From: Arthrobacter sp. NIO-1057 | Lineage (GTDB): Bacteria; Actinomycetota; Actinomycetes; Actinomycetales; Micrococcaceae | Direction: 5' to 3' | Assembly (NCBI RefSeq): GCF_900094805.1 | Contig: NZ_FMAT01000002.1 | Span: 496,001-560,000 of the forward strand | Length of the DNA stretch: 64,000 nucleotides | Shown here: positions 6,510 through 20,425 of the stretch, one piece after another | How positions within the stretch are numbered: the first letter of the stretch is position 1 | How the letters are laid out: each line of letters starts with the position of its first letter | Notes under the pieces: model-generated | Database searches by the model: none | Seen by the model: the letters and a program-made list of their open reading frames with translations, nothing else | What the model was told of the DNA's origin: nothing | Translations under genes and position numbers: made by a program

Positions 6510-9500
6510 GTGTTCTTTTTAGAGGATCAGTTCATCTTTTCTGCCAGCGACCTTGCTGTGTCTGTCGACTGCAACTATCAGTCGCTGTTCCTCTTGGACG
6601 TCAAACTTGGCCGCCGTCCGGCCACCGAAAAAACCCGCGACGAAATGCTCGAACGCACCGCGGTCCTCGGGGACGTTCATGAGCACAATGTTTTAGAGCA
6701 GCTCATCGAAACGTACGGCGAATACGATCCGATTGCGGGCACCGGTGTAAAGCAGTTTCATGACCGTCCGACGATGACGCCCGAAGGTCTTCGCGAAGCA
6801 CACGAGCAAACAATGCAGGTTTTGCGCAGTGGTGCCGACGTCATTTTCCAGGCCACTTTCTTCGATGGGTCGTTCATCGGTTTTGCCGACTTCCTCGTTC
6901 GACAGTCAGATGGTTCGTGGGCTGTCTGGGATACGAAGTTAGCCCGTCATGCCCGCGTGAGCGCCCTGCTCCAGGTGGCCGCCTACGCAGACCAGATGAT
7001 CGCTGAGGGCATTAGCGTCTCCAGCAAAACTACTCTCGTCCTCGGCGACGGCACGCACTCGGTGCATCGGGTGGATGAGGTCCTGCCGGTGTTCCGCGCT
7101 CAACGTGCACGATTCTTGACGATGATTCAAAAACATCGAGGTTCCTCACAGCGCGTGGCATGGGATTCAGATCAGCTTCGGCTCTGTGGCCGTTGCGATT
7201 ACTGCTCCGAGCAAGTTCAAGAAACCAGAGATGTCTTGCTCGTCGCAGGCATGTCGATGGTGCAGCGCGAAAAACTGCGCAAACGCCAGATCTTTACCAT
7301 TGACCAATTAGCTGATCTGAAGGCGCCGTCGGAATCGTCTCTGGCCCGTTTTATCGACCAAGCCCAAATGCAATTGGGGTTGGGACGTAAAGACGGAGAA
7401 GTGCAGGGGGTAAGGTACCGGGTCAAATCCAGTCAAACGATCTCGAATCTTCCTGCTCCTGATGCTGGCGATATCTTCTTTGATTTTGAAGGTGACCCGC
7501 TATACCAAGAAAGCACTGATGGGTCATGGGGACTGGAGTACCTCTTCGGCGTTATTGAATATGACACCAAAGTGCCAGTGTTCAAGCCTTTCTGGGCACA
7601 CAGCCGGGCAGAGGAACGCCAAGCGTTCCTAGATTTCATCGCTTATGTGCAGCAACGGCGTGAGCGCTTCCCCAACATGAAGATTTACCACTACGCACCC
7701 TATGAAAAGAGCGCTTTGCGAAAGCTCTCTCAGGTGCATATTGCCGGTGAAGAAATCATTGATAGCTGGTTGCGGGAAAACTTGCTAGTGGATCTGTACG
7801 AGACCGTACGCAATTCATTAGTCGTCTCCACTCGCTCCTACTCGATCAAAAAACTTGAACCCCTATATATGGGGCAGCATCTTCGAGGTGGCGACGTCAC
7901 CGACGCCGGGGCATCGGTCGTGGCCTATGCGCAGTACATGCAGGCCCGGGATGCTCACGACAGCGCCACAGCCAATGAAGTCTTGGCTTCAATTGCCGAT
8001 TACAACGAATACGATTGCCTCTCCACCCTTCGCTTGCGAGATTGGCTGCTGTCATTAGAGGAACACCATCCTCAGACTCTTCCTGCCATGCCATTGGCCG
8101 AAGATACCAAAGAAGCATATGAGCCCAGCGCCGAAGAACTGCGTTTGCAGGACTACCTCGCGAATCTTCCACAGGGTCAGGCACTGAGTGATGATGACCG
8201 CGCCATTGCCATGGTCGCTGCAGCGACCGGCTACAACCGCCGCGAGAAGAAACAGTTTTGGTGGGAGCACTTCGATCGGCTCTCGGCACCAGTTGATGAT
8301 TGGAGCGATGCCCGGGGCGTTTTCATTGTTGACGGTGCCGAAGTGCTTGAGGATTGGCACAAACCCACCGAACGGGCCCGAACCTTCACTAGGGTGACCA
8401 GACTCAGCGGTACTCTGGCCGAAGGTTCTTTGCTCTCCCCCGGCGCTTCAGTCTTTGCCATGTTCGCTGCCCCATTGCCTGAAGGCATGGAAGTAGACGA
8501 ATCACTGCGAGGCGGTGCGTTTAACACGACTGTCGTGGAACTTGGCGAGGGGTGGATTACCGTTGCCGAGAAATCCAGTGCCAAAATCCCTCCCTACGGT
8601 TCAATCCCCATGGCGTTGGCCCCGGATAAGCCCTTGATGACCAAGAGCATCGATGACGCGCTGTTGGAGATCGCCCAAAAGGTCGGTTCTACGGTTCCTG
8701 TGCTGCCGAAGCAGCCGGGGGTCGATATTCTGCGTCGTATCTCGCCACGATTCACAACCCTGCCGGCACCAGCACGGCCAGAGGTCGTCAATGGCCAACC
8801 ACAGACCTACCAAGCGGTCGTTGAGTCCCTGAAGGATCTTGATCAGTCCTATCTGGCCGTTCAAGGCCCTCCTGGCACGGGCAAAACCTTCGTTGCGTCG
8901 CACGTGATCCGTGAACTGATCCATGATGGATGGAAAATCGGTGTCGTGGCACAGTCCCACGCAGTGGTTGAAAATGTACTGCGCAAGGCAATCGAAGCCG
9001 GCGTCGACCCATCAGTGGTTGCCAAGGAAGTTAAGCACAAGGATCCAGTACCTTGGACCGAAACGTCTAAGGATTCCATAACGAACGTCCTGAACTCGGC
9101 TGAAGGAGCGTTAATTGGTGGTACGGCTTGGACCCTGACCGGTTCTAAGGTCCCTGCGCAGAGCCTGGACCTGTTGGTGATTGACGAGGCCGGACAGTTC
9201 TCTTTGGCCAATACCTTGGCGGTATCTCGTGCTGCCCGCAACCTCTTGTTGCTCGGTGATCCGCAACAGTTGCCACAAGTTACCCAGGGTTCGCATCCGC
9301 AGCCTGTTGATGAATCAGCCCTGGGGTGGCTATCAGCCGGAGAGCCCGTGCTCCCTTCACAATTGGGATATTTCTTGGCCTTGTCGTGGCGCATGCACCC
9401 AGAGCTGTGCGCCAAGGTGTCTGCCTTGAGCTATGACCATCAACTGTTTTCGGCGCCGGCCGCTGGGGAACGAGTCCTTGACGGAACGCCTGCAGGAGTA

Positions 9501-9965
9501 AGCACGAGCTTCGTTGAACATCGCGGGAACACCGTCAGTTCGGTTGAGGAAGCCGAAGCAATCGTGCAACTTGTCCGTGAACATCTTGGCATGTTGTGGA
9601 CTCCCGGTCCCGGTAAGACAGCTCGCGGGTTGGAAGCCACTGACATCTTGGTCGTCGCGGCCTATAACGCCCAAGTCAACCTTGTTCGTGAGGTCCTGGC
9701 TTCGCAAGGGTTGGACGCGGTCAAGGTTGGAACCGTCGACAAATTCCAGGGACAGGAAGCCCCGGTCGTTTTGATGACCATGGCCTGCTCCAGCGCCGAT
9801 GATGCCTCCCGCGGCATCGAGTTCCTCTTGAACCGAAACCGCGTCAACGTTGCCATCTCCCGCGGACAGTGGAAGGCCATCATCGTGCGCAGCGAACGGC
9901 TCACGGATTATCTGCCATCCTCCCCGCGGGCGCTCTCCGAATTGGGCGCGTTTATGGCCCTCTAG
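6510..9965 (+). CDS. TM0106-family RecB-like nuclease fused to SF1 helicase
   Basis: 1151-residue putative nuclease-helicase. Residues 1-230 look like a RecB/Cas4-type PD-(D/E)xK nuclease: GADVIFQATFFDGSFIGFADFLV, then WAVWDTKLARHA as the D/ExK strand, ending in CGRCDYC at about 226-232, a partial Cys cluster like the Cas4/AddB iron-sulfur motif. Around 320-510 lies an RNase H-like segment (DIFFDFEGDPLY, YNEYDCLSTLRLRDWL). The C-terminal part is a superfamily 1 helicase of the Upf1/Dna2 type: GPPGTGKT at 786, VIDEAGQFS near 890, LGDPQQLPQ, the SWRMHPELC motif, and the C-terminal VDKFQGQEAPVV and NRNRVNVAISRGQ. GTG start. No obvious partner is adjacent; role in DNA repair or defence is inference. 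Confidence 0.88.
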   Translation: MFFLEDQFIFSASDLAVSVDCNYQSLFLLDVKLGRRPATEKTRDEMLERTAVLGDVHEHNVLEQLIETYGEYDPIAGTGVKQFHDRPTMTPEGLREAHEQTMQVLRSGADVIFQATFFDGSFIGFADFLVRQSDGSWAVWDTKLARHARVSALLQVAAYADQMIAEGISVSSKTTLVLGDGTHSVHRVDEVLPVFRAQRARFLTMIQKHRGSSQRVAWDSDQLRLCGRCDYCSEQVQETRDVLLVAGMSMVQREKLRKRQIFTIDQLADLKAPSESSLARFIDQAQMQLGLGRKDGEVQGVRYRVKSSQTISNLPAPDAGDIFFDFEGDPLYQESTDGSWGLEYLFGVIEYDTKVPVFKPFWAHSRAEERQAFLDFIAYVQQRRERFPNMKIYHYAPYEKSALRKLSQVHIAGEEIIDSWLRENLLVDLYETVRNSLVVSTRSYSIKKLEPLYMGQHLRGGDVTDAGASVVAYAQYMQARDAHDSATANEVLASIADYNEYDCLSTLRLRDWLLSLEEHHPQTLPAMPLAEDTKEAYEPSAEELRLQDYLANLPQGQALSDDDRAIAMVAAATGYNRREKKQFWWEHFDRLSAPVDDWSDARGVFIVDGAEVLEDWHKPTERARTFTRVTRLSGTLAEGSLLSPGASVFAMFAAPLPEGMEVDESLRGGAFNTTVVELGEGWITVAEKSSAKIPPYGSIPMALAPDKPLMTKSIDDALLEIAQKVGSTVPVLPKQPGVDILRRISPRFTTLPAPARPEVVNGQPQTYQAVVESLKDLDQSYLAVQGPPGTGKTFVASHVIRELIHDGWKIGVVAQSHAVVENVLRKAIEAGVDPSVVAKEVKHKDPVPWTETSKDSITNVLNSAEGALIGGTAWTLTGSKVPAQSLDLLVIDEAGQFSLANTLAVSRAARNLLLLGDPQQLPQVTQGSHPQPVDESALGWLSAGEPVLPSQLGYFLALSWRMHPELCAKVSALSYDHQLFSAPAAGERVLDGTPAGVSTSFVEHRGNTVSSVEEAEAIVQLVREHLGMLWTPGPGKTARGLEATDILVVAAYNAQVNLVREVLASQGLDAVKVGTVDKFQGQEAPVVLMTMACSSADDASRGIEFLLNRNRVNVAISRGQWKAIIVRSERLTDYLPSSPRALSELGAFMAL

Positions 9966-9986: not shown

Positions 9987-11243
9987 TCATTTCCTGGCCG
10001 GATCGATGACCTTTTCGACGTCGAAGAACGCGCCTAATACTGGGCGGTCGCCTTTTTCTTCCTTGGCGAATTGCAACCCGTCAACGTTGATACGCATTTG
10101 ACGTTGATACTCTGGGCGTTGCTGCATCCAGGCTTCAGTGGTGCCATCCACACCGTAGAAGTACTTAAAACCCTGGCTTTTCAGGTACTCATAGCGCGGA
10201 CCCGAATAAGCGCTGGTATGGGCGATGTCGGCGCCAAAGGGATAAATGTATTGATCGGTCGCGCCAACGATCGGTTCAACTTCTTTTTCCCAAAGCTTGG
10301 TATCACGCTTCAGGCGCCCCATGCTCACCGAGTCGGTTTGGATATGACCCCACGAGTGCGAGGCAAAGACCCAACCGGTGTCTTTCATGGCCGTTGCAAT
10401 CGCTGTAGCTTTTTCCTGATCCTGCTTGATGTTCTTATTATCTGGGTACTGGCTTTCCGAAGTGCGGTAGCCAAATTCACCGTTATAACCAGTCATAGCC
10501 ACCAACCCGCGTGCGCCACGATAAGTGAAATCTGGGTGCTCGTTGATGAAGTCATCAACCATCGTGGTCACGTCATAGGCGCCGATATGTTTTTTGCCGT
10601 CGGCATCCACATACTCGTTGCGGACCTTACCGTTGTCGTCGAGCACTAGTTTGCTGGCGAAACCGTCACCGTCCATATATTCGTAGTAACTGAGATCATC
10701 CACGGATAAGACGAGAGGCTTTTTGCCTTTAGGGAGCATGATCTTTCGATACTCCATCTGTTTCTTATCGTTCAGACCGGCAAAATCTTCTGGGTTAACC
10801 AGCACGTAGTCTTTGGCGTAGAGCGAAGAGAGAATCGCAGCAAATTCCTTCTGGGTCACCATGTAGTCTTCGTAACCGGCAGAGCGGCTGTCCTTATCGA
10901 AGGCACGATCGGTGTCCACGATCAGTGAGTGGAAAAACAGGTGCGGAATCTTATCCGGTTCAGCCCATGCTGTTGTGTGCTCTTTTTCGTCTTCCAGTCC
11001 GCCAACCATCGACGACAGTTCTGTGTTGCTATCTTTTTTCGCAAGTTTGATCGCAGCATCGTAGTCATAGCCATCAGCAAGCCTATTAATTTCGGCTTTA
11101 ACGCTGTCGACTCGTTCTTGTTCCTGCTGTGCTTGTGCATCTTCGGAAGACTCTGTGCTCGGGTTTTCGGTTGGAGTTTGGGTGCTGCACGCTGCCAGGG
11201 CCATGACCAGGCCAACAGTTACTGCTAGTCGCAAGGGCTTCAT
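9987..11243 (-). CDS. Polysaccharide deacetylase family lipoprotein
   Basis: 418 residues. The N-terminus is a lipoprotein signal with lipobox LAAC (Cys19), followed by an acidic, Gln/Glu-rich spacer, so the enzyme is probably anchored on the outer face of the membrane. The NodB-like domain shows KPLVLSVDDLSYYEY near 175-190 (the Asp pair position of motif 1) and WVFASHSWGHIQ near 300 (the HxxxH-type zinc motif). A large insert separates them. The likely role is deacetylation of cell-wall or extracellular glycans; the substrate is unknown. It is transcribed divergently from the jetABC operon. Confidence 0.8.
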   Translation of the reverse strand: MKPLRLAVTVGLVMALAACSTQTPTENPSTESSEDAQAQQEQERVDSVKAEINRLADGYDYDAAIKLAKKDSNTELSSMVGGLEDEKEHTTAWAEPDKIPHLFFHSLIVDTDRAFDKDSRSAGYEDYMVTQKEFAAILSSLYAKDYVLVNPEDFAGLNDKKQMEYRKIMLPKGKKPLVLSVDDLSYYEYMDGDGFASKLVLDDNGKVRNEYVDADGKKHIGAYDVTTMVDDFINEHPDFTYRGARGLVAMTGYNGEFGYRTSESQYPDNKNIKQDQEKATAIATAMKDTGWVFASHSWGHIQTDSVSMGRLKRDTKLWEKEVEPIVGATDQYIYPFGADIAHTSAYSGPRYEYLKSQGFKYFYGVDGTTEAWMQQRPEYQRQMRINVDGLQFAKEEKGDRPVLGAFFDVEKVIDPARK

Positions 11244-11467: not shown

Positions 11468-12928
11468 ATGCAGCCCTCGCACCGCGCGAATAGTTTGTGG
11501 CTACAGGCTCAACAGTTCAAAGGATCGGCAGCATTTCGTCTTCTGACGGCCCAGCCCTGGGCAGTTGCCTTCATTCGAGCCGAGTTCACCGCAGATCGCT
11601 CCCGCGTCGCGCTGGAACTATTCCATGCCTCGTTAGATTCATTCTTAAAGCAGGCACGTAAAAGCGACGAACAGATTCCCCAGTCCTACTCTGCCCAAGA
11701 TTTTGCGGAGAGCTGGGTGAAACAAGGCATTCTGGCCCGCCCACTGATCGATGGCCGCTTCGTTTATGAGCCAAGTGCGCAGACCCTGCGCACCTTGCGT
11801 TTCCTCGCTGATTTTTCCACCGACGACTCACACCTGAACTCTTCACGCTTGAACACGCTACTGTCATCCTTGGAGTCTTTGGTACACGAAACTGACCCTG
11901 ATCCTGAAGCGCGAATCAGGGCTTTGGAATCTCAGATCGCCCAACGCCAGGCTCAGATTGAACAGCTTCGTAGTGGGGATGACCCTGCGGTGCTTTCACG
12001 CACCACGGCCCTGTCGGCCACTCGTTCGCTGTTGGATCTTGCTTCGAGCCTGCCAGCAGATTTCCGTCGCATGCGCGACGGCGTTCAGGATATGTTGCAT
12101 TCGCTGCGCGAAGGCATCCTTGATGCTTCCACCGCGAAGGGTGTGGCTGTGGGGCAGGTCCTCGAAGCTGACCGCCAGCTGCGTTCAACGGCCGAAGGCG
12201 AAACCTTTAGGGGGTTCACCGAGTTCCTTAATTCTCCCGAGGCCCAGCAGCGTTTCCGCTCGGCGTTGGCTGAAGTTCTTGAACGCGACTTTGTTGATGA
12301 TCTTGATGCCACCGAGCGTCAGATCCTGACAAATCTGTTGCGTGAGCTTAGACGTCAGGCTGCTGAAGTACACGCATCCTACGGCAAACTTTCCGAGTCT
12401 TTGCACGCTTTTGTTCAGTCAGAGGAATACAAACAAGCCGAGCTTCTGCGACAGGCGGTCCGCGAAGCCGAACTGGCGATCAGCAAGTCATCAGCGCTCA
12501 AACCGCGTAGTGGACTGACCCCCATGGATTTGTACACCCCGCAGCTGATGACCCTTTCCGGATTAGGGATCTACGATTCTTCAGAACATGTGGCGCCTCC
12601 CCCACTAGCTCAGGCACCTGAATACAGTGAAGCGGACATCGTTCGTAACCCAACAACGCCACAGGCCAATATGGCGTTATTGCGGGAATCAATCACTACA
12701 CAGCTGAAAAATTCATCAACCGCGGCAGTAGGCATGAATGAAGTATTTGCTGCCCTAGATGATGAACACCGACATTTGAATACCATCCGTGCCCTCGTTG
12801 AGATAGGCCGCACCAACGGTGAGTCCCTCAACGACGCCGAGTTGATCAACATTGAATTCCAACAGCTTGATGGTTCGATGAGAACCGCGATCTTGCCCGC
12901 CCTGAGCTTTACGAAGGAGCCGCTATGA
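11468..12928 (+). CDS. jetA: JetA/MksF-like DUF3375 protein (Wadjet/MksBEF kleisin)
   Basis: 486 residues, DUF3375 family: the kleisin-like subunit of the Wadjet/MksBEF SMC complex that links the two ATPase heads. The N-terminus is typical (ANSLWLQAQQFKGSAAFRLLTAQPWAVAFIRAEF), with a winged-helix region and RPLIDGRFVYEPSAQTLRTLRFLADF near 95-120. A helical region rich in Gln/Arg (130-260) and a C-terminal part with FQQLDGSMRTAILPALSF follow. The gene is first of three tightly packed genes; its TGA overlaps the ATG of jetB by 4 bp. AAGGAAG precedes the ATG. In the known systems this complex recognises and compacts circular DNA; here the fourth gene (nuclease JetD) is missing from the locus. 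Confidence 0.87.
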   Translation: MQPSHRANSLWLQAQQFKGSAAFRLLTAQPWAVAFIRAEFTADRSRVALELFHASLDSFLKQARKSDEQIPQSYSAQDFAESWVKQGILARPLIDGRFVYEPSAQTLRTLRFLADFSTDDSHLNSSRLNTLLSSLESLVHETDPDPEARIRALESQIAQRQAQIEQLRSGDDPAVLSRTTALSATRSLLDLASSLPADFRRMRDGVQDMLHSLREGILDASTAKGVAVGQVLEADRQLRSTAEGETFRGFTEFLNSPEAQQRFRSALAEVLERDFVDDLDATERQILTNLLRELRRQAAEVHASYGKLSESLHAFVQSEEYKQAELLRQAVREAELAISKSSALKPRSGLTPMDLYTPQLMTLSGLGIYDSSEHVAPPPLAQAPEYSEADIVRNPTTPQANMALLRESITTQLKNSSTAAVGMNEVFAALDDEHRHLNTIRALVEIGRTNGESLNDAELINIEFQQLDGSMRTAILPALSFTKEPL

Positions 12929-13611
12929 CCACGAGCGATGCCTACGCAGCACCCATCGCAGAACCGTTGTTCGAAGGTGATACCGGAAAATACTCCCTGC
13001 CTTTGCGCCAGCTGCTGGTCCGTCTTTTACGCGGACCGTACCTGGATGGCTCGCTCGACGCTGCCGCGTGGCAACTCTTGCTTGATCAGCAACAGAGCAT
13101 CAGTGATTACTTCTCAGAGATTTTCTTGGCCTTGACTTTGGACATGGATCGCAAAATTGCGATGCTCGCTCCAGTACAAATTGAGCAAGTACATACCGCG
13201 CCGATTGCTCCGCGTCGCCCGCTTAAGCGCGATGAAACCCTGTTGGCTCTGCGCCTGCGCCTGTTGTTAGAACAACAGTCAGGCAGTGGGAATGATGCTG
13301 TCATTTCCCGCTCCGCCATGCATGAAATCTTGGCCGAACACCGTCAGGCCAGCGACCGTGATGACAAGCGTTTTGCTGAATCTTGTGAGGCCGCTATCGC
13401 TCGGTTGCAGTCACTGCGACTACTGACCAGCACCGAGCTGGAGAACGAATTCCGGATCTCCCCAGCGCTAGCGATGGCCCTACCGCTGAAAAATATTGCG
13501 GACATCCCGCGCTACATCGCGGCGATTGATGCCAACGAACCGGCCTTTAACCTGTCGGCCGACGAGAACGATGAACTTGCCGAACAAACACCCGAGTTGG
13601 TGCAGGAGTAA
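12925..13611 (+). CDS. jetB: JetB/MksE-like DUF4194 protein
   Basis: 228 residues, DUF4194 family, the KITE-like accessory subunit (MksE) that binds the kleisin JetA. Features that fit are a winged-helix-like N-terminal part (LRQLLVRLLRGPYLDGSLDAAAWQLLLDQQQSISDYFSEIFLALTLD is the family core, about 28-75), the PLKRDETLLALRLRLLLEQQ segment near 97-117, and ESCEAAIARLQSLRLL before an acidic, low-complexity tail. The start overlaps jetA (ATGA), and only three bases separate its stop from jetC, so the three proteins are almost certainly made together. Confidence 0.85.
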   Translation: MTTSDAYAAPIAEPLFEGDTGKYSLPLRQLLVRLLRGPYLDGSLDAAAWQLLLDQQQSISDYFSEIFLALTLDMDRKIAMLAPVQIEQVHTAPIAPRRPLKRDETLLALRLRLLLEQQSGSGNDAVISRSAMHEILAEHRQASDRDDKRFAESCEAAIARLQSLRLLTSTELENEFRISPALAMALPLKNIADIPRYIAAIDANEPAFNLSADENDELAEQTPELVQE

Positions 13612-13614
13612 CCC

Positions 13615-16600
13615 ATGAGTATTGAAATGACGCTTCCGCTGGGCGGCGCAATCAACCCGGGCCAGCATCGCCTCAGCCGAGTACAAATCGTTAACTGGGG
13701 AACCTTCCATGGACTTCATGATCTGTCCGTGGACCGAGCCGGCACACTGGTGACTGGACACCCTGGCGTGGGCAAATCAACCCTCTTTGATGCCATGGGT
13801 CACGTCTTCTTTGCTACCCCGCGACTGAACGAATCGGCCAATGACGCGGCCACCCGCGAAGACCGCCGCACCACGTTCTCCTATATGCGTGGCCGCCAAT
13901 TCAAGACCACCGAGGGTACCGTCTACCAACGCCCTGGGGCTACCTGGAGCGCCATCATCCTCAGCTACGACGACGGCATGGGCAACACCGTGAGCGCCGG
14001 AGCTGTCTTTGATCTGCCCGATGCCGGCTTAGAAGGCCAAGTTTCCAAACACTATCTTTTGTGTGAGGGGAAGGTCGAGATTGCTGAGCTGGAAAATCAT
14101 GGTCCGCGCCGTTTCACTGTCTCTTCACTGTCCAAGGCTCTAGCGCCGAGTGAAGCCTTCGACACCCACAAGGCCTTCATTGAGCGTCTTCGTCGCCGAC
14201 TCGGGGTCGAAAGCGATAAGGCTTTCGCTCTGTTACGCACCCTGCAAAATGGTAAGGGCTTAGCCAAGGGCGTTAACCAGTTCTTCCGTCACGAAGTACT
14301 CGAAGAACCTGCAACGCTTAAAGCTGCGGCAGCTGCGGTTGAAGACTTCGCTCACCTGCGTGGCATTTATCGCCAGCTGGATACAGCGCGGGCCCAACGA
14401 GATGCGCTGGCCGAAGTTCCGCACCAGGATCAGGCCTACCGTCAGCTAGCTCAGCAGATTACCGAAACCCGGCAGCTACTCGAAAGTGATGTGCAGGATC
14501 TAGAAGCCCAGGTTCGGCAGCTGGTCCTGCGCAATGATCTGCAATCGCATCAAGGCGAACTAGCCGCCTTGCAGTCTGAAGAAGAAGAGCTACGTACGCG
14601 CAAAGAACAGCTCGATGATCAGTTGCAGTCCTTAGAGGCTGCCCACGATTCTGCAGGTTCTGCCTCTCTGATGCTGTTGGAACGCGAAGCAGATGTTGCC
14701 CGCAAAGCATTGAGCGAAAAAGAAAACACCATTCGCGCCTTGCAGCAGCAAGCCTCGGATGCGGGGTTGAGCTTTGAATTCTCTGCCACGGGTCTAGATG
14801 AGTTGCGTGCCAACGCTGCCCGAACTTTGCAACAACTGGCTTCCATCACCCAGGACGCTCAAACCGTGGAATATGAGGCCATGGCGTCCTTGGTCAACCT
14901 GCGCAAGCGGGCCGAGACCCTGGCTGAACAGATCCGTTCCTACCAGCGTCGTGCCAGCAATATTGACGATCGATCTATCGCAGCACGCCGTGCCATCGCT
15001 TCTGCCTGCTCGTTGCAGGAAGAGCAGCTGCCTTTCGCCGGCGAGCTCATGGACGTTTCGGCAGATGCTTCGACCTGGCGATTGGCCGCCGAGAAGGCAT
15101 TGCATTCTTTGGCCCGCACGCTGCTGGTCCCCGGTGAACTCATCTCTCAGGTCACCCACGCTATCGACCAGCTTGATGGTCTGGGACGGGTTCGTTGGAC
15201 CGATATTTCGCAGCGCCCCAAGGATGCTGAGGCTGGCCCGGCGGATCTGGTCACCAAACTCGACTTCGCTCCGGGTGAGGCCGGTAGTTGGCTCAAGGCC
15301 AAGATCACCGCAGACTATCCGTTGACGTGTGTCGACACCGATGCCGCGATGCACGTACATCCCAAGGCCATCACCCCGGCTGGCACGATGAAGACCGGTA
15401 ACGGAACGTTCGAACGAGACACTCGTGGACTTCCCGCCTCAGAGTACTTGCTCGGATTCACCAATGAATCAAAGATCGCTGAGCTTGAGTCCAAGGCTGC
15501 CCGCCTTGAAGAGAAAATAACGAAGGCCCAAGCTTCTGCCGATGAGCGCAGCGCTGCCAAGAACAAGGTCGTCGCCAAATCACAGTTGCTGAAGGCCATC
15601 ATTGCCGATGAACGAAGCTTCACCCAGCTAGATTCTTCACCAGCGTTGGAAGCTCTGCGTCGTGGCGAACAGAAACTCGGTGACGCCCTCTCGCTCTCGG
15701 GCGATTCCTCGCGCGTACGTCAGCAGATTGAAGCAGCTAAGGCCGAAGCTGAGAAGCTCGTCGGTGATCTGGCACTGGTCCGTTCCCGTATTCAGGACCT
15801 ACAGTTGCAGGTCCAGCGAGCCGAGCAGGTGTTGTCCACTGCGCAAGCTCCAGGTGTTGATTGGGAGCAATCGATACCACTCTCGCTACGCCAGCATCAG
15901 TTACTGGGACCGGTGCTCGATCAAGTCATTTCCGGGAACTGCCCCTCGAGTGAAAACATCAGTGAGGCGTTCGCTGAGGTCAAACTGCAGCTGGGTAGCC
16001 AGATGAATTCGCTGAACAGCCAGCGCCAAGACATTGGTAGTGCGCTCAGTGAGACGTTCCGCCGCTTTGCCCGCGACTTTGGCACCTCGCACGCCCAAAC
16101 TCACGGTACCTCTGCTGAGGCCGCTGAACACTACACCCAGCTGCACGATCAGATTGTGGCTGACGGTTTGCCACACCACGAGGCGCAGTTCCGCGAATAC
16201 TTCGCGAATCGTTCTTACGAACGCTTCAGTGACCTGTTGCAGCTGCTTGATGAAGAACGCCGGATGATCTCTGAACGCATCAAACCCCTGAACCAGATTC
16301 TGGCCGAGGTGACGTTTGAGCATGGATCCATTCTGCGCTTGGAAGTGCAGAATGCTATTCCTGTGGAAGCTGGAAACTTCCGCAAGGAACTGAAAGATGC
16401 CTTGCAGGAGGCCTATACGACCAAGGATGAAACGACCTTGGCTACCTCGTATCAGGCATTGGAATCTCTGGTGACAGCTTTGAGCGATCCGGCGCTCAAC
16501 GCTTGGCGTTCCACCGTATTAGATGTTCGCCAACACGTGATCATTAGCTGTAATGAGCATAAGACCAATGGTGAAATCGAAACGGGCCTGGAGCCGGGTA

Positions 16601-16941
16601 CTCTCTCTGGTGGTGAAGGTCAGCGTTTCACCTCATTCATTATGGGTGCTGCCTTGGCCTACCAGTTGGGCTTCGCGTCGGCAGGGTTCACGTCCTTTGG
16701 CACCGTGATGATCGATGAGGCGTTCATTCAGGCAAACTCTGAATATGCTGCTGCCGGCATCCGTGCCTTGCAGGAATTCGGTTTCCACCTTGTCCTGGCT
16801 GCGCCCGAAGACAAGATCGATCTGAGTCGACATCTGGGGTCGATTACCGACATCATCAAGCACCCCGGATCTAATATCTCGGGCTTCGTGACCACCGGAC
16901 GTTCACCGGCGATGGCCACGACGATCACACTACGTAACTAG
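13615..16941 (+). CDS. jetC: JetC/MksB-like SMC-type ATPase
   Basis: 1108-residue SMC/Rad50-like ATPase, the motor of the Wadjet/MksBEF complex. Walker A GHPGVGKST is at residues 48-56. Two long Glu/Gln/Arg-rich coiled-coil runs (about 240-450 and 630-760) flank a central globular region. The C-terminal head has the ABC signature LSGGEGQ near 997 and Walker B VMIDEAF near 1031-1037. The protein ends in the family's APEDKIDLSRHLG segment. Length matches full JetC, and there is no Toprim/TopoVI-like region in the tail that could replace JetD. The stop is followed at once by a 24-bp-stem terminator, so the operon ends here. Confidence 0.9.
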   Translation: MSIEMTLPLGGAINPGQHRLSRVQIVNWGTFHGLHDLSVDRAGTLVTGHPGVGKSTLFDAMGHVFFATPRLNESANDAATREDRRTTFSYMRGRQFKTTEGTVYQRPGATWSAIILSYDDGMGNTVSAGAVFDLPDAGLEGQVSKHYLLCEGKVEIAELENHGPRRFTVSSLSKALAPSEAFDTHKAFIERLRRRLGVESDKAFALLRTLQNGKGLAKGVNQFFRHEVLEEPATLKAAAAAVEDFAHLRGIYRQLDTARAQRDALAEVPHQDQAYRQLAQQITETRQLLESDVQDLEAQVRQLVLRNDLQSHQGELAALQSEEEELRTRKEQLDDQLQSLEAAHDSAGSASLMLLEREADVARKALSEKENTIRALQQQASDAGLSFEFSATGLDELRANAARTLQQLASITQDAQTVEYEAMASLVNLRKRAETLAEQIRSYQRRASNIDDRSIAARRAIASACSLQEEQLPFAGELMDVSADASTWRLAAEKALHSLARTLLVPGELISQVTHAIDQLDGLGRVRWTDISQRPKDAEAGPADLVTKLDFAPGEAGSWLKAKITADYPLTCVDTDAAMHVHPKAITPAGTMKTGNGTFERDTRGLPASEYLLGFTNESKIAELESKAARLEEKITKAQASADERSAAKNKVVAKSQLLKAIIADERSFTQLDSSPALEALRRGEQKLGDALSLSGDSSRVRQQIEAAKAEAEKLVGDLALVRSRIQDLQLQVQRAEQVLSTAQAPGVDWEQSIPLSLRQHQLLGPVLDQVISGNCPSSENISEAFAEVKLQLGSQMNSLNSQRQDIGSALSETFRRFARDFGTSHAQTHGTSAEAAEHYTQLHDQIVADGLPHHEAQFREYFANRSYERFSDLLQLLDEERRMISERIKPLNQILAEVTFEHGSILRLEVQNAIPVEAGNFRKELKDALQEAYTTKDETTLATSYQALESLVTALSDPALNAWRSTVLDVRQHVIISCNEHKTNGEIETGLEPGTLSGGEGQRFTSFIMGAALAYQLGFASAGFTSFGTVMIDEAFIQANSEYAAAGIRALQEFGFHLVLAAPEDKIDLSRHLGSITDIIKHPGSNISGFVTTGRSPAMATTITLRN

Positions 16942-16955
16942 CGCACTGCGCACGA

Positions 16956-17006
16956 AAAGAGGTCGGGTCCGGAAATCAGAAACTGATTTCCGGACCCGAC
17001 CTCTTT
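16956..17006. terminator. Strong bidirectional terminator between jetC and the ABC permease gene
   Basis: Perfect 24-bp inverted repeat, arms 16956-16979 and 16983-17006, loop AAA, with A and T runs at the two ends. It sits between two convergent genes and can serve both. It shows that jetC is the last gene of its transcript. Confidence 0.92.
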
Positions 17007-17032: not shown

Positions 17033-19528
17033 TTATTCGGTGGCCAAGCCTTCAACCGGTGAAAGCTTCGCGGCCCGACGCCCTGGTGTAATCGATGCCA
17101 ACAGGGCTGCGATCACGCTGATGGCAAGAACTGCGGCCAGCTGCCACCAAGGGATCGAGTAGGTCATCGTCCCCATGGATGACAACGCCGACTGCGCGCC
17201 CAGCAAACCATAAATCACGCCGAGGACCATGCCCAGCAACGCGGCTACGCCACCGATCAGTACCGCTTCGGTAGCCAGCATGCTTCGCAGCTGCTTCTTC
17301 TTCAGGCCCAGTGCCCGCAGCAGTGAGTTTTCACGGGTGCGTTCGAGCACCGAGAGGCTGAGCGTGTTGGCGACACCAATCAAGGCGATCAGCACGGCCA
17401 CTGCAAGCAGCGCCGAAACAATGGTCAGCAGCACGTCAATGATCTGAGTGAACATTGACTTCATCACCACGCCACCGTCAATCATCGAAGAATCCACACC
17501 GGTGATGTCCGAGATTTCAGTGACCAGCTCGTTGATCTGCGAGCCAGCGACACCGGAATCTACCTTGACGATAATTCCTGGGTACGACTCTGGATCCTTA
17601 ATGTCTAAGGTCTTGAACGTTTGGCTGGTCACCGGGTTTCCTGAGAGCAACGCACCCGACTTCTTGATCTTCAGCGTCTGACCGCCGATCTCTACAGATT
17701 TCAGGTCGGTACTCCACTGCGACAAAACGAGTTCACCATTTTCTGGCACCACGCTCTGGTCCAGAACCGTCTTGGAATATTCTTGTGGATCAACCGCAAG
17801 CAGTTGCAAGGACACCGGGTCGCCTTCATTGAGGTTCACTTCGGCATAGGAACTGGTGAACGTCGACGTCGCGCTGACTCCATCCACCGCGTCGATCTTC
17901 TTGGCCAGTTCATCAGCCTTAGCCTTACTGGTCGTCCCGTCGTAGAACGACACCATCATGTCCACAGGATATTCCGCTGCCACCGAATTATTCAGGCTGG
18001 CTTTAGCGGTCTGCCCACCAACCATAATCATCGATACCAAGGTCACGCCGATCAGCAGAGCGGTTGCCGTAGCGGTGGTGCGCCCTGGATTACGTACTGC
18101 GTTCAGTGCTGCCAAACGACGGGAAGTCGAGTTACCAGCAACCAGCTTGCCAATGCCTGCGACACTGCTCGGTACGAACAGTGAGGCGAGCATCAAGATG
18201 CCAGGGAATGACACCAAACCACCGAGGAAGGCGATGATCAGGTCACCCTTGATGGCACCATAGATCAACAGGGCTGCGCCGATGAGGGCGAGCACGGCAC
18301 CAATGACGATGCGCACGATGCCTGCACGGTTCTTCATGCTGGCTGAATCAAAGGGACGCAGTGCTGCCAACGGAGCCAGTTTCATGGCTCGGCGGGCCGG
18401 CAGGCTAGCGGCGATGACCGTCATCAAGATACCGACAGCGATCGGAACGATGAGACCCACAGGAGTCAGCGACAAGGTTGCATAGGACATGGCCGGCACA
18501 AGGGCGTGCAATAGTTGGATAAGCCCTGACATCAAGGCGATCGCCAGCAAGACACCAATCACCGAAGCGACAATGCCGATCACCAACGCTTCGAGCAGTA
18601 CCGAGCTGCGGATCTGTTTGCGCTTGGCTCCAAGGGTACGGAGCAACGCCAATTCACGAGTACGCTGGGCAATCACCACGGAGAAGGTGTTGACCACAAC
18701 GAGGCCCGTGACGACCAGTGCAATCAAGGCGAAGATGATCAGGATGACGCTCAGCTGGTCCGTGCCATCGGTCATTTGTGCGACTTCGTCAATGACCTTT
18801 TGATCCGCGGTGACCACAGCCATGTCACTCATCTTCTGCTGCGCAAAGTAGTCGTTGAGTTCCTGCGCGACAGCGTCGGTTGAGCCTTCACTGTTGATCA
18901 CAATGTCACTGAACATGGCACCGTCACCAGCGAAATGGGTCCAGGCTTTTTCGCTCATACCCCCCAATGCGTAGGCAGAAGTCTGCGGGTTAGTCGAGGA
19001 ACGCTGAATGCCGACGATGGTGATGTTTTGGCTCTTGCCTTGATCATCGCTCAGGGCAACCACATCACCAATGGAGATGCCCATATCCTGCGCATGCGAG
19101 GCGTCGATAATCATCTCGTTATTGGATAGCGGAGCACGGCCTTCGAGAAGTTCCATGCCGCCCAACCCCTGGTTTGGGTCCACTGGCTGAAGCTGTACGG
19201 TGTAGCCGTTATCAGCGGTATGCAGCTGACCGTAGGCGTATCCCAGCCCATAGGCGGTGGATACTCCGGGCAGTTCTCGGACACCGGTGATGTCTTTGGC
19301 AGTCAGGTCTACGGTCTTAGCGCTATCTGCGCTTGGGTCCGGATCCCAGTAAGCCACAAGGTCGGCGTTCTTGTAGGAGTCCCCCAAGGAATTCTTCAAG
19401 GTCGCCTGAGTTGATGAGTTCACGGCTAAGGTCGCCGCAAGGAATGCGGTGCCAATAGCCACAGCAAGCACGACAGCGATATAGCGTCGCGCATAGGTTT
19501 TGATATTTGAAAGAGCTACGTGCAGCAT
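17033..19528 (-). CDS. ABC transporter permease, MacB/FtsX type with two FtsX domains
   Basis: 831 residues with the layout common in Gram-positive exporters: one N-terminal helix (YIAVVLAVAIGTAFLAATLAV), an extracellular MacB-PCD-like domain, three helices of the first FtsX domain (about 260-385), a short pair of helices, a second extracellular domain, and three helices of the second FtsX domain at the C-terminus (LLTIVSALLAVAVLIALIGVANTLSLSV onward). ARTREL/LRTLGAKRKQIRSS and the matching ERTRENSLLRALGLKKKQLRS are the paired coupling motifs. It lies 3 bp after the ATPase gene and pairs with it. The exported substrate is unknown; antimicrobial-peptide or lipoprotein-type substrates are usual for the class. 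Confidence 0.9.
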   Translation of the reverse strand: MLHVALSNIKTYARRYIAVVLAVAIGTAFLAATLAVNSSTQATLKNSLGDSYKNADLVAYWDPDPSADSAKTVDLTAKDITGVRELPGVSTAYGLGYAYGQLHTADNGYTVQLQPVDPNQGLGGMELLEGRAPLSNNEMIIDASHAQDMGISIGDVVALSDDQGKSQNITIVGIQRSSTNPQTSAYALGGMSEKAWTHFAGDGAMFSDIVINSEGSTDAVAQELNDYFAQQKMSDMAVVTADQKVIDEVAQMTDGTDQLSVILIIFALIALVVTGLVVVNTFSVVIAQRTRELALLRTLGAKRKQIRSSVLLEALVIGIVASVIGVLLAIALMSGLIQLLHALVPAMSYATLSLTPVGLIVPIAVGILMTVIAASLPARRAMKLAPLAALRPFDSASMKNRAGIVRIVIGAVLALIGAALLIYGAIKGDLIIAFLGGLVSFPGILMLASLFVPSSVAGIGKLVAGNSTSRRLAALNAVRNPGRTTATATALLIGVTLVSMIMVGGQTAKASLNNSVAAEYPVDMMVSFYDGTTSKAKADELAKKIDAVDGVSATSTFTSSYAEVNLNEGDPVSLQLLAVDPQEYSKTVLDQSVVPENGELVLSQWSTDLKSVEIGGQTLKIKKSGALLSGNPVTSQTFKTLDIKDPESYPGIIVKVDSGVAGSQINELVTEISDITGVDSSMIDGGVVMKSMFTQIIDVLLTIVSALLAVAVLIALIGVANTLSLSVLERTRENSLLRALGLKKKQLRSMLATEAVLIGGVAALLGMVLGVIYGLLGAQSALSSMGTMTYSIPWWQLAAVLAISVIAALLASITPGRRAAKLSPVEGLATE

Positions 19529-19531
19529 CGA

Positions 19532-20281
19532 TTACTCCGCCAATGAGGCAAGTGCCTCGGACACGGTAGCCACGGTGGGCTCCTCGATGGTGCCAACGAT
19601 GGAACCATCCTTCATGAGCAGGACGGTGTCAGCGTAGGATGCTGCCACCGGGTCGTGGGTGACCATGATGATGGTCTGACCCATTTCGCGGGTCGAGGTA
19701 CGCATCAAGGACAACACCTCGGCGCCGGTTCGCGAATCCAGGTTACCCGTTGGCTCGTCACCGAAAACAACTTCTGGGCGGGTGAGCAGTGCACGGGCCA
19801 CGGCCACACGCTGTTGCTGGCCACCGGAGAGTTCATGTGGCTTGTGGGTGAGGCGATCACGCAGTCCTAGGGCATTGATGACCGTGTTGAACCATTCTCG
19901 GTCATGTTTTTTGCCGGCCAGGGACAGGGGCAACAAGATGTTCTCTCGTGCGTTGATGGTGGGCACCAAGTTGAATGACTGGAACACGAAACCAATTTGT
20001 TCGCGTCGCATTTCGGTGAGCTGATCGTCGCTGAGCGAGAGCAGGTTCTTGCCACCGATGATGATTTCTCCGCCGTCTGCTGAGTCCAATCCAGCAAGGC
20101 AGTGCATCAGGGTTGATTTGCCGGATCCGGAAGGACCCATGATGGCGGTGAAGCGAGAACGGGCGAAAGCAACGTCGACTCCTCGAAGGGCTTCGACTCG
20201 GGTGGTGTCGTGTCCGTAGGTTTTGGTCAGCCCACGCGCGGCGACCGCAAAGTCAGTTTTTGGCAGTGTTTCAGAAGTCAT
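19532..20281 (-). CDS. ABC transporter ATP-binding protein (MacB/LolD type)
   Basis: 249 residues. Walker [10 protein letters not shown] is at 49-57, Q-loop in [10 protein letters not shown], signature LSGGQQQR near 155, Walker [14 protein letters not shown] near 175, and H-loop in MVTHDP. The sequence is of the MacB/LolD/FtsE group that energises FtsX-type permeases, and the permease gene follows 3 bp downstream. I start it at ATG 20281 (MTSETLPK); a TTG/ATG pair at 20320/20317 would add 12-13 residues with no family resemblance. A ribosome site is weak at either start. Confidence 0.92.
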
Positions 20282-20425
20282 ATCAAAAGAATATAAATTT
20301 CCTAGCCAGAGGAGCATCAACCAACAGGCTTGACTTGCTTGGACAGTGCATCATACTCAGGTATGACCCAGCCACAACAAAACTAGGTCACAGGTTATTG
20401 GACCGGGTTCTTTCGGTGTTTCCGC

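Follow-up and report, generated by a model that had tools for sequence, protein, structure and literature searches.

Wadjet type I systems carry the nuclease JetD beside the subunits JetA, JetB and JetC. The 64,000-nucleotide stretch of DNA analysed here (the window) encodes JetA, JetB and JetC, and the question is what such a complex does when its operon has no jetD. The initial annotation of the locus had left three options: a jetD elsewhere, a nuclease-free condensin, or another nuclease that serves the complex.

The jetABC operon and the search for jetD

As described before, a complete jetABC was found packed into one operon at 11468-16941; according to the reading frames, jetA and jetB overlapped by 4 bp and the gap between jetB and jetC was 3 bp. 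The features of the locus and the family matches of their products are given in Table 1. The coverage of the PADLOC models was near full length. As a single query, JetB matched no solved JetB in the structure-sequence comparison, and a family profile (A1) was needed. Wadjet type I structures were the best solved matches for JetA, for JetC and, by profile, for JetB, and the JetABCD systems of P. aeruginosa PA14 and E. coli GF4-3 (8dk1-3, 8as8, 8q72) have the same three subunits in the same order. None of the MukB, MukE and MukF family models of Pfam and NCBIfam was matched by the three proteins at E ≤ 0.001. The genome also encodes a canonical SMC, which reached 882 bits in a profile search. 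The terminator-like stem and the convergent ABC exporter reported directly after jetC were both confirmed. The terminator scan gave 13 terminator-like sites compared with 10.4 in shuffles, and only the long stem behind jetC stood out.

Table 1. Features of the jetABC locus (window coordinates).
Feature	Coordinates	Strand	Description	Evidence
TM0106-type RecB-like nuclease fused to superfamily 1 helicase	6510-9965		1151 aa, upstream of jetA	
jetA (mksF)	11468-12928	+	kleisin subunit, DUF3375, 486 aa	PF11855, 343.9 bits (cut-off 28.6); PADLOC JetA1, 765 bits; solved JetA 8q72, E 2.4e-13
jetB (mksE)	12925-13611	+	KITE subunit, DUF4194, 228 aa; N-terminal tail motif LFEGDTG	PF13835, 123.9 bits (cut-off 32.7); PF21980 (MksE), 36.3 bits (above its cut-off of 27, yet below the DUF4194 score); PADLOC JetB1, 290 bits; family profile A1 vs solved JetB 9qxt, E 7.3e-15
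jetC (mksB)	13615-16941	+	SMC-like ATPase, 1108 aa; Walker A GHPGVGKS, signature SGGE, Walker B	PF13555 and PF13558, both above cut-off; PADLOC JetC1, 1093 bits; solved JetC 8dk2, E 7.1e-69
terminator-like stem	16959-17003	.	perfect 20-pair stem, T-rich tails on both strands, between convergent jetC and exporter	
FtsX-type permease	17033-19528		convergent with jetC	
ABC ATPase	19532-20320		partner of the permease	

The initial annotation had seen no jetD in the window, and this held for the whole genome (13 contigs, 100% complete), which was searched with three JetD profiles. PF11795 and PF09983 each gave no match, with C. glutamicum positive as the control (it was also detected in the DUF3375 search). 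A profile built from 16 JetD proteins gave no match at E ≤ 10; this profile was positive in four sister genomes with E values from 1e-113 to 1e-147. The genome-wide searches therefore revealed no jetD close to the operon, and at E ≤ 0.001 the Pfam matches of JetA, JetB and JetC included no JetD family, which leaves no sign of a JetD domain inside one of these proteins.

Distribution in the genus and the family

Orthologous jetABC (hereafter the core) was present once per genome in 18 of 18 examined genomes of Glutamicibacter, the genus of the window, and the nine-gene order of the window was preserved in the 17 others. DUF3375 was found in all 18, with a second copy in four, exactly those in which the 16-sequence profile detected a full-length jetD. 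This profile also detected fragments in G008 and, in two further genomes of the genus, only chance-level matches (E 0.2-0.4). In the Micrococcaceae, a core JetA profile of 20 rows (A2) detected a single-copy orthologous jetA in 118 of 245 genomes and 11 of 31 genera, at 656-826 bits. In an order-wide search of 297 genomes, 17 genomes, all from the family of the window, scored at the core level (712-822 bits), and every non-core jetA match stayed at or below 229 bits. With fragments counted as jetD, 81 of the 118 core-bearing genomes had no jetD match and 37 had one, while the 127 family genomes lacking the core comprised 25 with and 102 without a match. Thus, the comparison with related Micrococcaceae that the initial annotation had proposed showed the core to be widespread without jetD. 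jetD was somewhat commoner where the core was present (Fisher p 0.04, uncorrected for genome size and kinship).

A genome scan of named relatives gave 191 loci, of which the best 80 were kept. These came from Glutamicibacter, Paeniglutamicibacter, Arthrobacter, Zhihengliuella, Sinomonas and others, and all 80 contained JetA, JetB and JetC. One of them is labelled Sporosarcina, probably a misassigned contig. Across these 80 loci, 36 other core loci and the window, a JetD profile gave no match below E 1 and only four chance matches (E 2-9). The same profile was positive in 32 other loci and found pieces in one more, and these 33 loci had also served to build it. In ten of the 80 loci less than 2 kb followed jetC, so that the absence of a downstream jetD is less certain in these. 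Judged from these sequences, the absence of jetD from the core locus is old. Only 7 of 72,556 plasmid records matched at E ≤ 1e-30; two matches, which covered the whole query at 52 and 38% identity, lay on replicons of 754 kb and 1.35 Mb, respectively.

In the JetA tree (77 rows) 34 core rows, and in the JetC tree (57 rows, four f10-family rows without JetC in the fetched stretch being left out) 23 core rows, fell on one side of a branch with support 100. The core jetD-less proteins form a single clade in both trees, which require 5 and 4 changes of the jetD state, respectively. These were quick trees with long branches, and because they are unrooted and have no outgroup, they do not decide between the loss of JetD and its original absence.

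The jetD genes of the family belonged to other operons. Each of 21 jetD-bearing loci inspected had its own divergent jetABC, and the nine jetD operons inspected in full among the 37 genomes (G001, G011, G017, G023, G040, G054, G063, G155, and G179) all had their own jetA and jetC. Only 14 jetD matches shared a contig with the core, and the closest of them, in G017, lay 19 kb from the core jetA, behind its own jetABC; these distances cover same-contig pairs only, as draft genomes with separate contigs give none. With no jetD in the own genome and none nearer than this on the contigs of relatives, the option of a jetD elsewhere was not borne out. In G008, a 20-kb stretch (L144, G008:C2:55000-74999) contained jetD pieces and no jetA or jetC, and the core jetABC was intact; here the cutting version seems to be decaying while the core persists.

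Eleven jetD-less loci lay outside the core, five of family f10 and six scattered. Two of the scattered loci, in G027 and G145, come from genomes without any jetD match, and the other four were judged on the stretch alone. The extra jetABC of G027 (L106) and of G145 (L138) group with the jetD-bearing L102 of G017. In the f10 lineage the operon was broken up: in L267 about 4.4 kb separated jetA from jetC, a stretch that contains an unrelated membrane-protein-like frame, and L259, L261, L264, and L266 had no jetC in the examined stretch.

Selection, conserved motifs and neighbouring genes

The median dN/dS against 17 genomes of the genus was 0.032 for JetA, 0.054 for JetB and 0.042 for JetC, after 5, 2, and 2 comparisons with saturated synonymous sites were dropped, respectively. 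The neighbours gave 0.069 (nuclease-helicase), 0.068 (lipoprotein), 0.138 (permease), 0.050 (ABC ATPase), and 0.022 (CDF). jetA, jetB, and jetC are under strong purifying selection. Walker A, SGGE and Walker B were present in core JetC of 37 of 37 loci. The exact SGGE string was found in only 3 of 23 other JetC proteins of the family (L102, L106, and L138), possibly a difference in the ATPase signature. Among the core jetA matches listed, two contained one TAA and eight others one TGA or TAG, located near or at the end of the match or inside it.

In JetB, a G-D-x-G motif ahead of the folded domain was invariant in 12 aligned proteins of the core and other groups. A loose pattern of this tail occurred in 117 of 117 core rows (which overlap in source genomes and are not 117 independent genomes), in 18 of the 32 jetD-bearing rows and in 6 of the 10 remaining jetD-less rows that have a JetB; as the search ran over the entire frame, a few matches may be spurious. 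None of the four jetD-less rows of family f10 with a JetB had the motif. Core rows mostly had LF (LFxGDTG-like), while the jetD-bearing rows with the motif mostly had LWxGDxG. The N-terminal IFDR motif of JetB is described as contacting JetD in the indexed text of PMC10586767. In three comparisons that looked for a link between the two motifs, the tail of the PA14 protein stayed unaligned.

The neighbourhood was compared by clustering the ORFs of 90 aa or longer that surround 37 core loci of ten genera, from about 7.5 kb before to 12.5 kb after the jetA start. No fourth gene conserved in the ten genera was found: all clusters that reached ten genera were operon genes or frames overlapping them, one of these having 8 of 46 members, from three genera, entirely outside the operon. 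Non-operon clusters reached at most five genera, and two of the five-genus clusters contain the ArsR regulator and the ABC ATPase of the window. As for another nuclease that might serve the complex, no neighbour outside the operon occurred in more than five of the ten genera. The gene at 9987-11243 had a weak polysaccharide deacetylase match below the cut-off, and its translation, read by eye, starts like a lipoprotein signal; its product is therefore probably located outside the cytoplasm, and it was rejected as a JetABC partner. In four of five Arthrobacter-group loci scanned (L178, L186, L110, and L123), an rRNA operon lay about 0.2-3.1 kb after jetC, and in the fifth (L177) the contig ends before one could appear. 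Contigs end just after jetC in L177, L180-L183, L185, L187, and L218, probably because an rRNA operon follows.

Function of the nuclease-free complex

The locus probably encodes a nuclease-free MksBEF-type second condensin that works like MksBEF of P. aeruginosa. Of the three options, this one was best supported by the sequence data, namely conservation without jetD, a single clade and strong purifying selection. The gene products likely form a complete complex of kleisin, KITE and SMC subunits that belongs to the Wadjet/MksBEF superfamily, lacks JetD and is kept by selection as a housekeeping complex. Since there is no cutter, and the cutter-less machine is widespread in the family, the DNA of the cell itself is most likely organised rather than plasmids destroyed. 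JetC dimers, held by JetA and JetB, would hydrolyse ATP and extrude DNA loops; without a nuclease, looping would lead to compaction, tethering or segregation of the chromosome and not to cleavage, and the complex would be a second condensin alongside canonical SMC. Loop extrusion and the chromosomal role are assigned here by analogy with studied relatives.

P. aeruginosa MksBEF likewise has three subunits beside SMC, and the searchable text of PMC7485682 describes it as working beside SMC and mentions no nuclease. The likeness was drawn from this description, and a chromosomal role has been shown for that complex, while for the complex of the window it is predicted. For Paenarthrobacter lasiusi S21, also of the Micrococcaceae, a jetABC without jetD is listed as well: Table 6 of PMC11719660 gives it as "Wadjet" beside a full jetABCD, as a defence system, and the accessible text carries no comment on the missing jetD. 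C. glutamicum MksBEFG is also an actinobacterial MksBEF beside canonical SMC, but it has the MksG nuclease and restricts plasmids, while the genome of the window has no such nuclease. According to the indexed part of PMC7083940, it acts on plasmids but does not organise the chromosome, which counts against the condensin reading. The absence of the core from 127 of 245 family genomes also counts against it, as the family as a whole can do without the core.

Several other readings were weighed. JetABC might sense small circles that are then cut by a nuclease encoded elsewhere. The proteins had their best matches among the models of Wadjet type I and the solved subunits of Wadjet, and this and the JetB tail motif throughout the core rows speak for such plasmid defence, as does the nuclease-helicase at 6510-9965, which adjoins the core in 17 of 17 other genomes of the genus. 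However, this gene was matched in only 28 of 80 loci (best 80 of 191) and 3 of 10 genera, and no remaining non-operon neighbour was common to more than five genera. The nuclease-helicase was therefore rejected as a replacement effector, its adjacency in the genus was taken as synteny by descent, and we regard an unlinked nuclease as quite improbable. In genomes with a separate jetABCD operon, the core complex could also borrow JetD from there, and the slight enrichment of jetD in core-bearing genomes is what a trans partnership would give. But most of these genomes, that of the window included, had no jetD match, and the subunits of the window reached at best 22-32% identity with those of jetD operons (tblastn), which makes this very unlikely. 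The conserved JetB tail motif may bind a partner, and we consider it doubtful that it docks an unlinked one (for example a topoisomerase or silencing factor) in place of JetD, as in a repurposed, non-cutting Wadjet. MksG of C. glutamicum is reported to contact MksF, not MksE, in the available text of PMC7083940, which speaks against a JetB dock as a general feature.

JetABC might also capture or silence foreign circular DNA uncut, as proposed for eukaryotic Smc5/6, whose restriction of viral DNA is discussed in the indexed text of PMC10586767. Such defence requires no nuclease. Defence genes usually turn over quickly, whereas the locus was syntenic in 18 of 18 genomes of the genus, and we consider non-cleaving defence unlikely. 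Finally, the operon could be a decaying relic of Wadjet after the loss of jetD. Decay of jetD was seen nearby in evolution, with only jetD pieces in G008, and jetD-less operons occur sporadically (L106, L138, L257, and L272); but the intact ATPase motifs in all 37 core loci and a dN/dS near 0.04 make this hardly credible.

A nuclease-free MksBEF is already known from Pseudomonas. Searches of the openly licensed literature gave no earlier description of such a complex that is fixed in an actinobacterial genus and occurs in much of the family, sometimes beside cutting versions, and no title or abstract on a jetD-less MksBEF lineage in the Micrococcaceae; the closest record was Table 6 of PMC11719660. 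Libraries of defence genes match the core loci strongly, and a condensin may therefore get listed as a defence system. If the JetB tail did dock a partner, the complex would be an SMC complex that processes DNA via a new partner without cutting. In the 37 of 118 genomes that have a jetD match besides the nuclease-free relative, the two would offer a natural pair for studying how one motor yields a plasmid cutter and a chromosome organiser.
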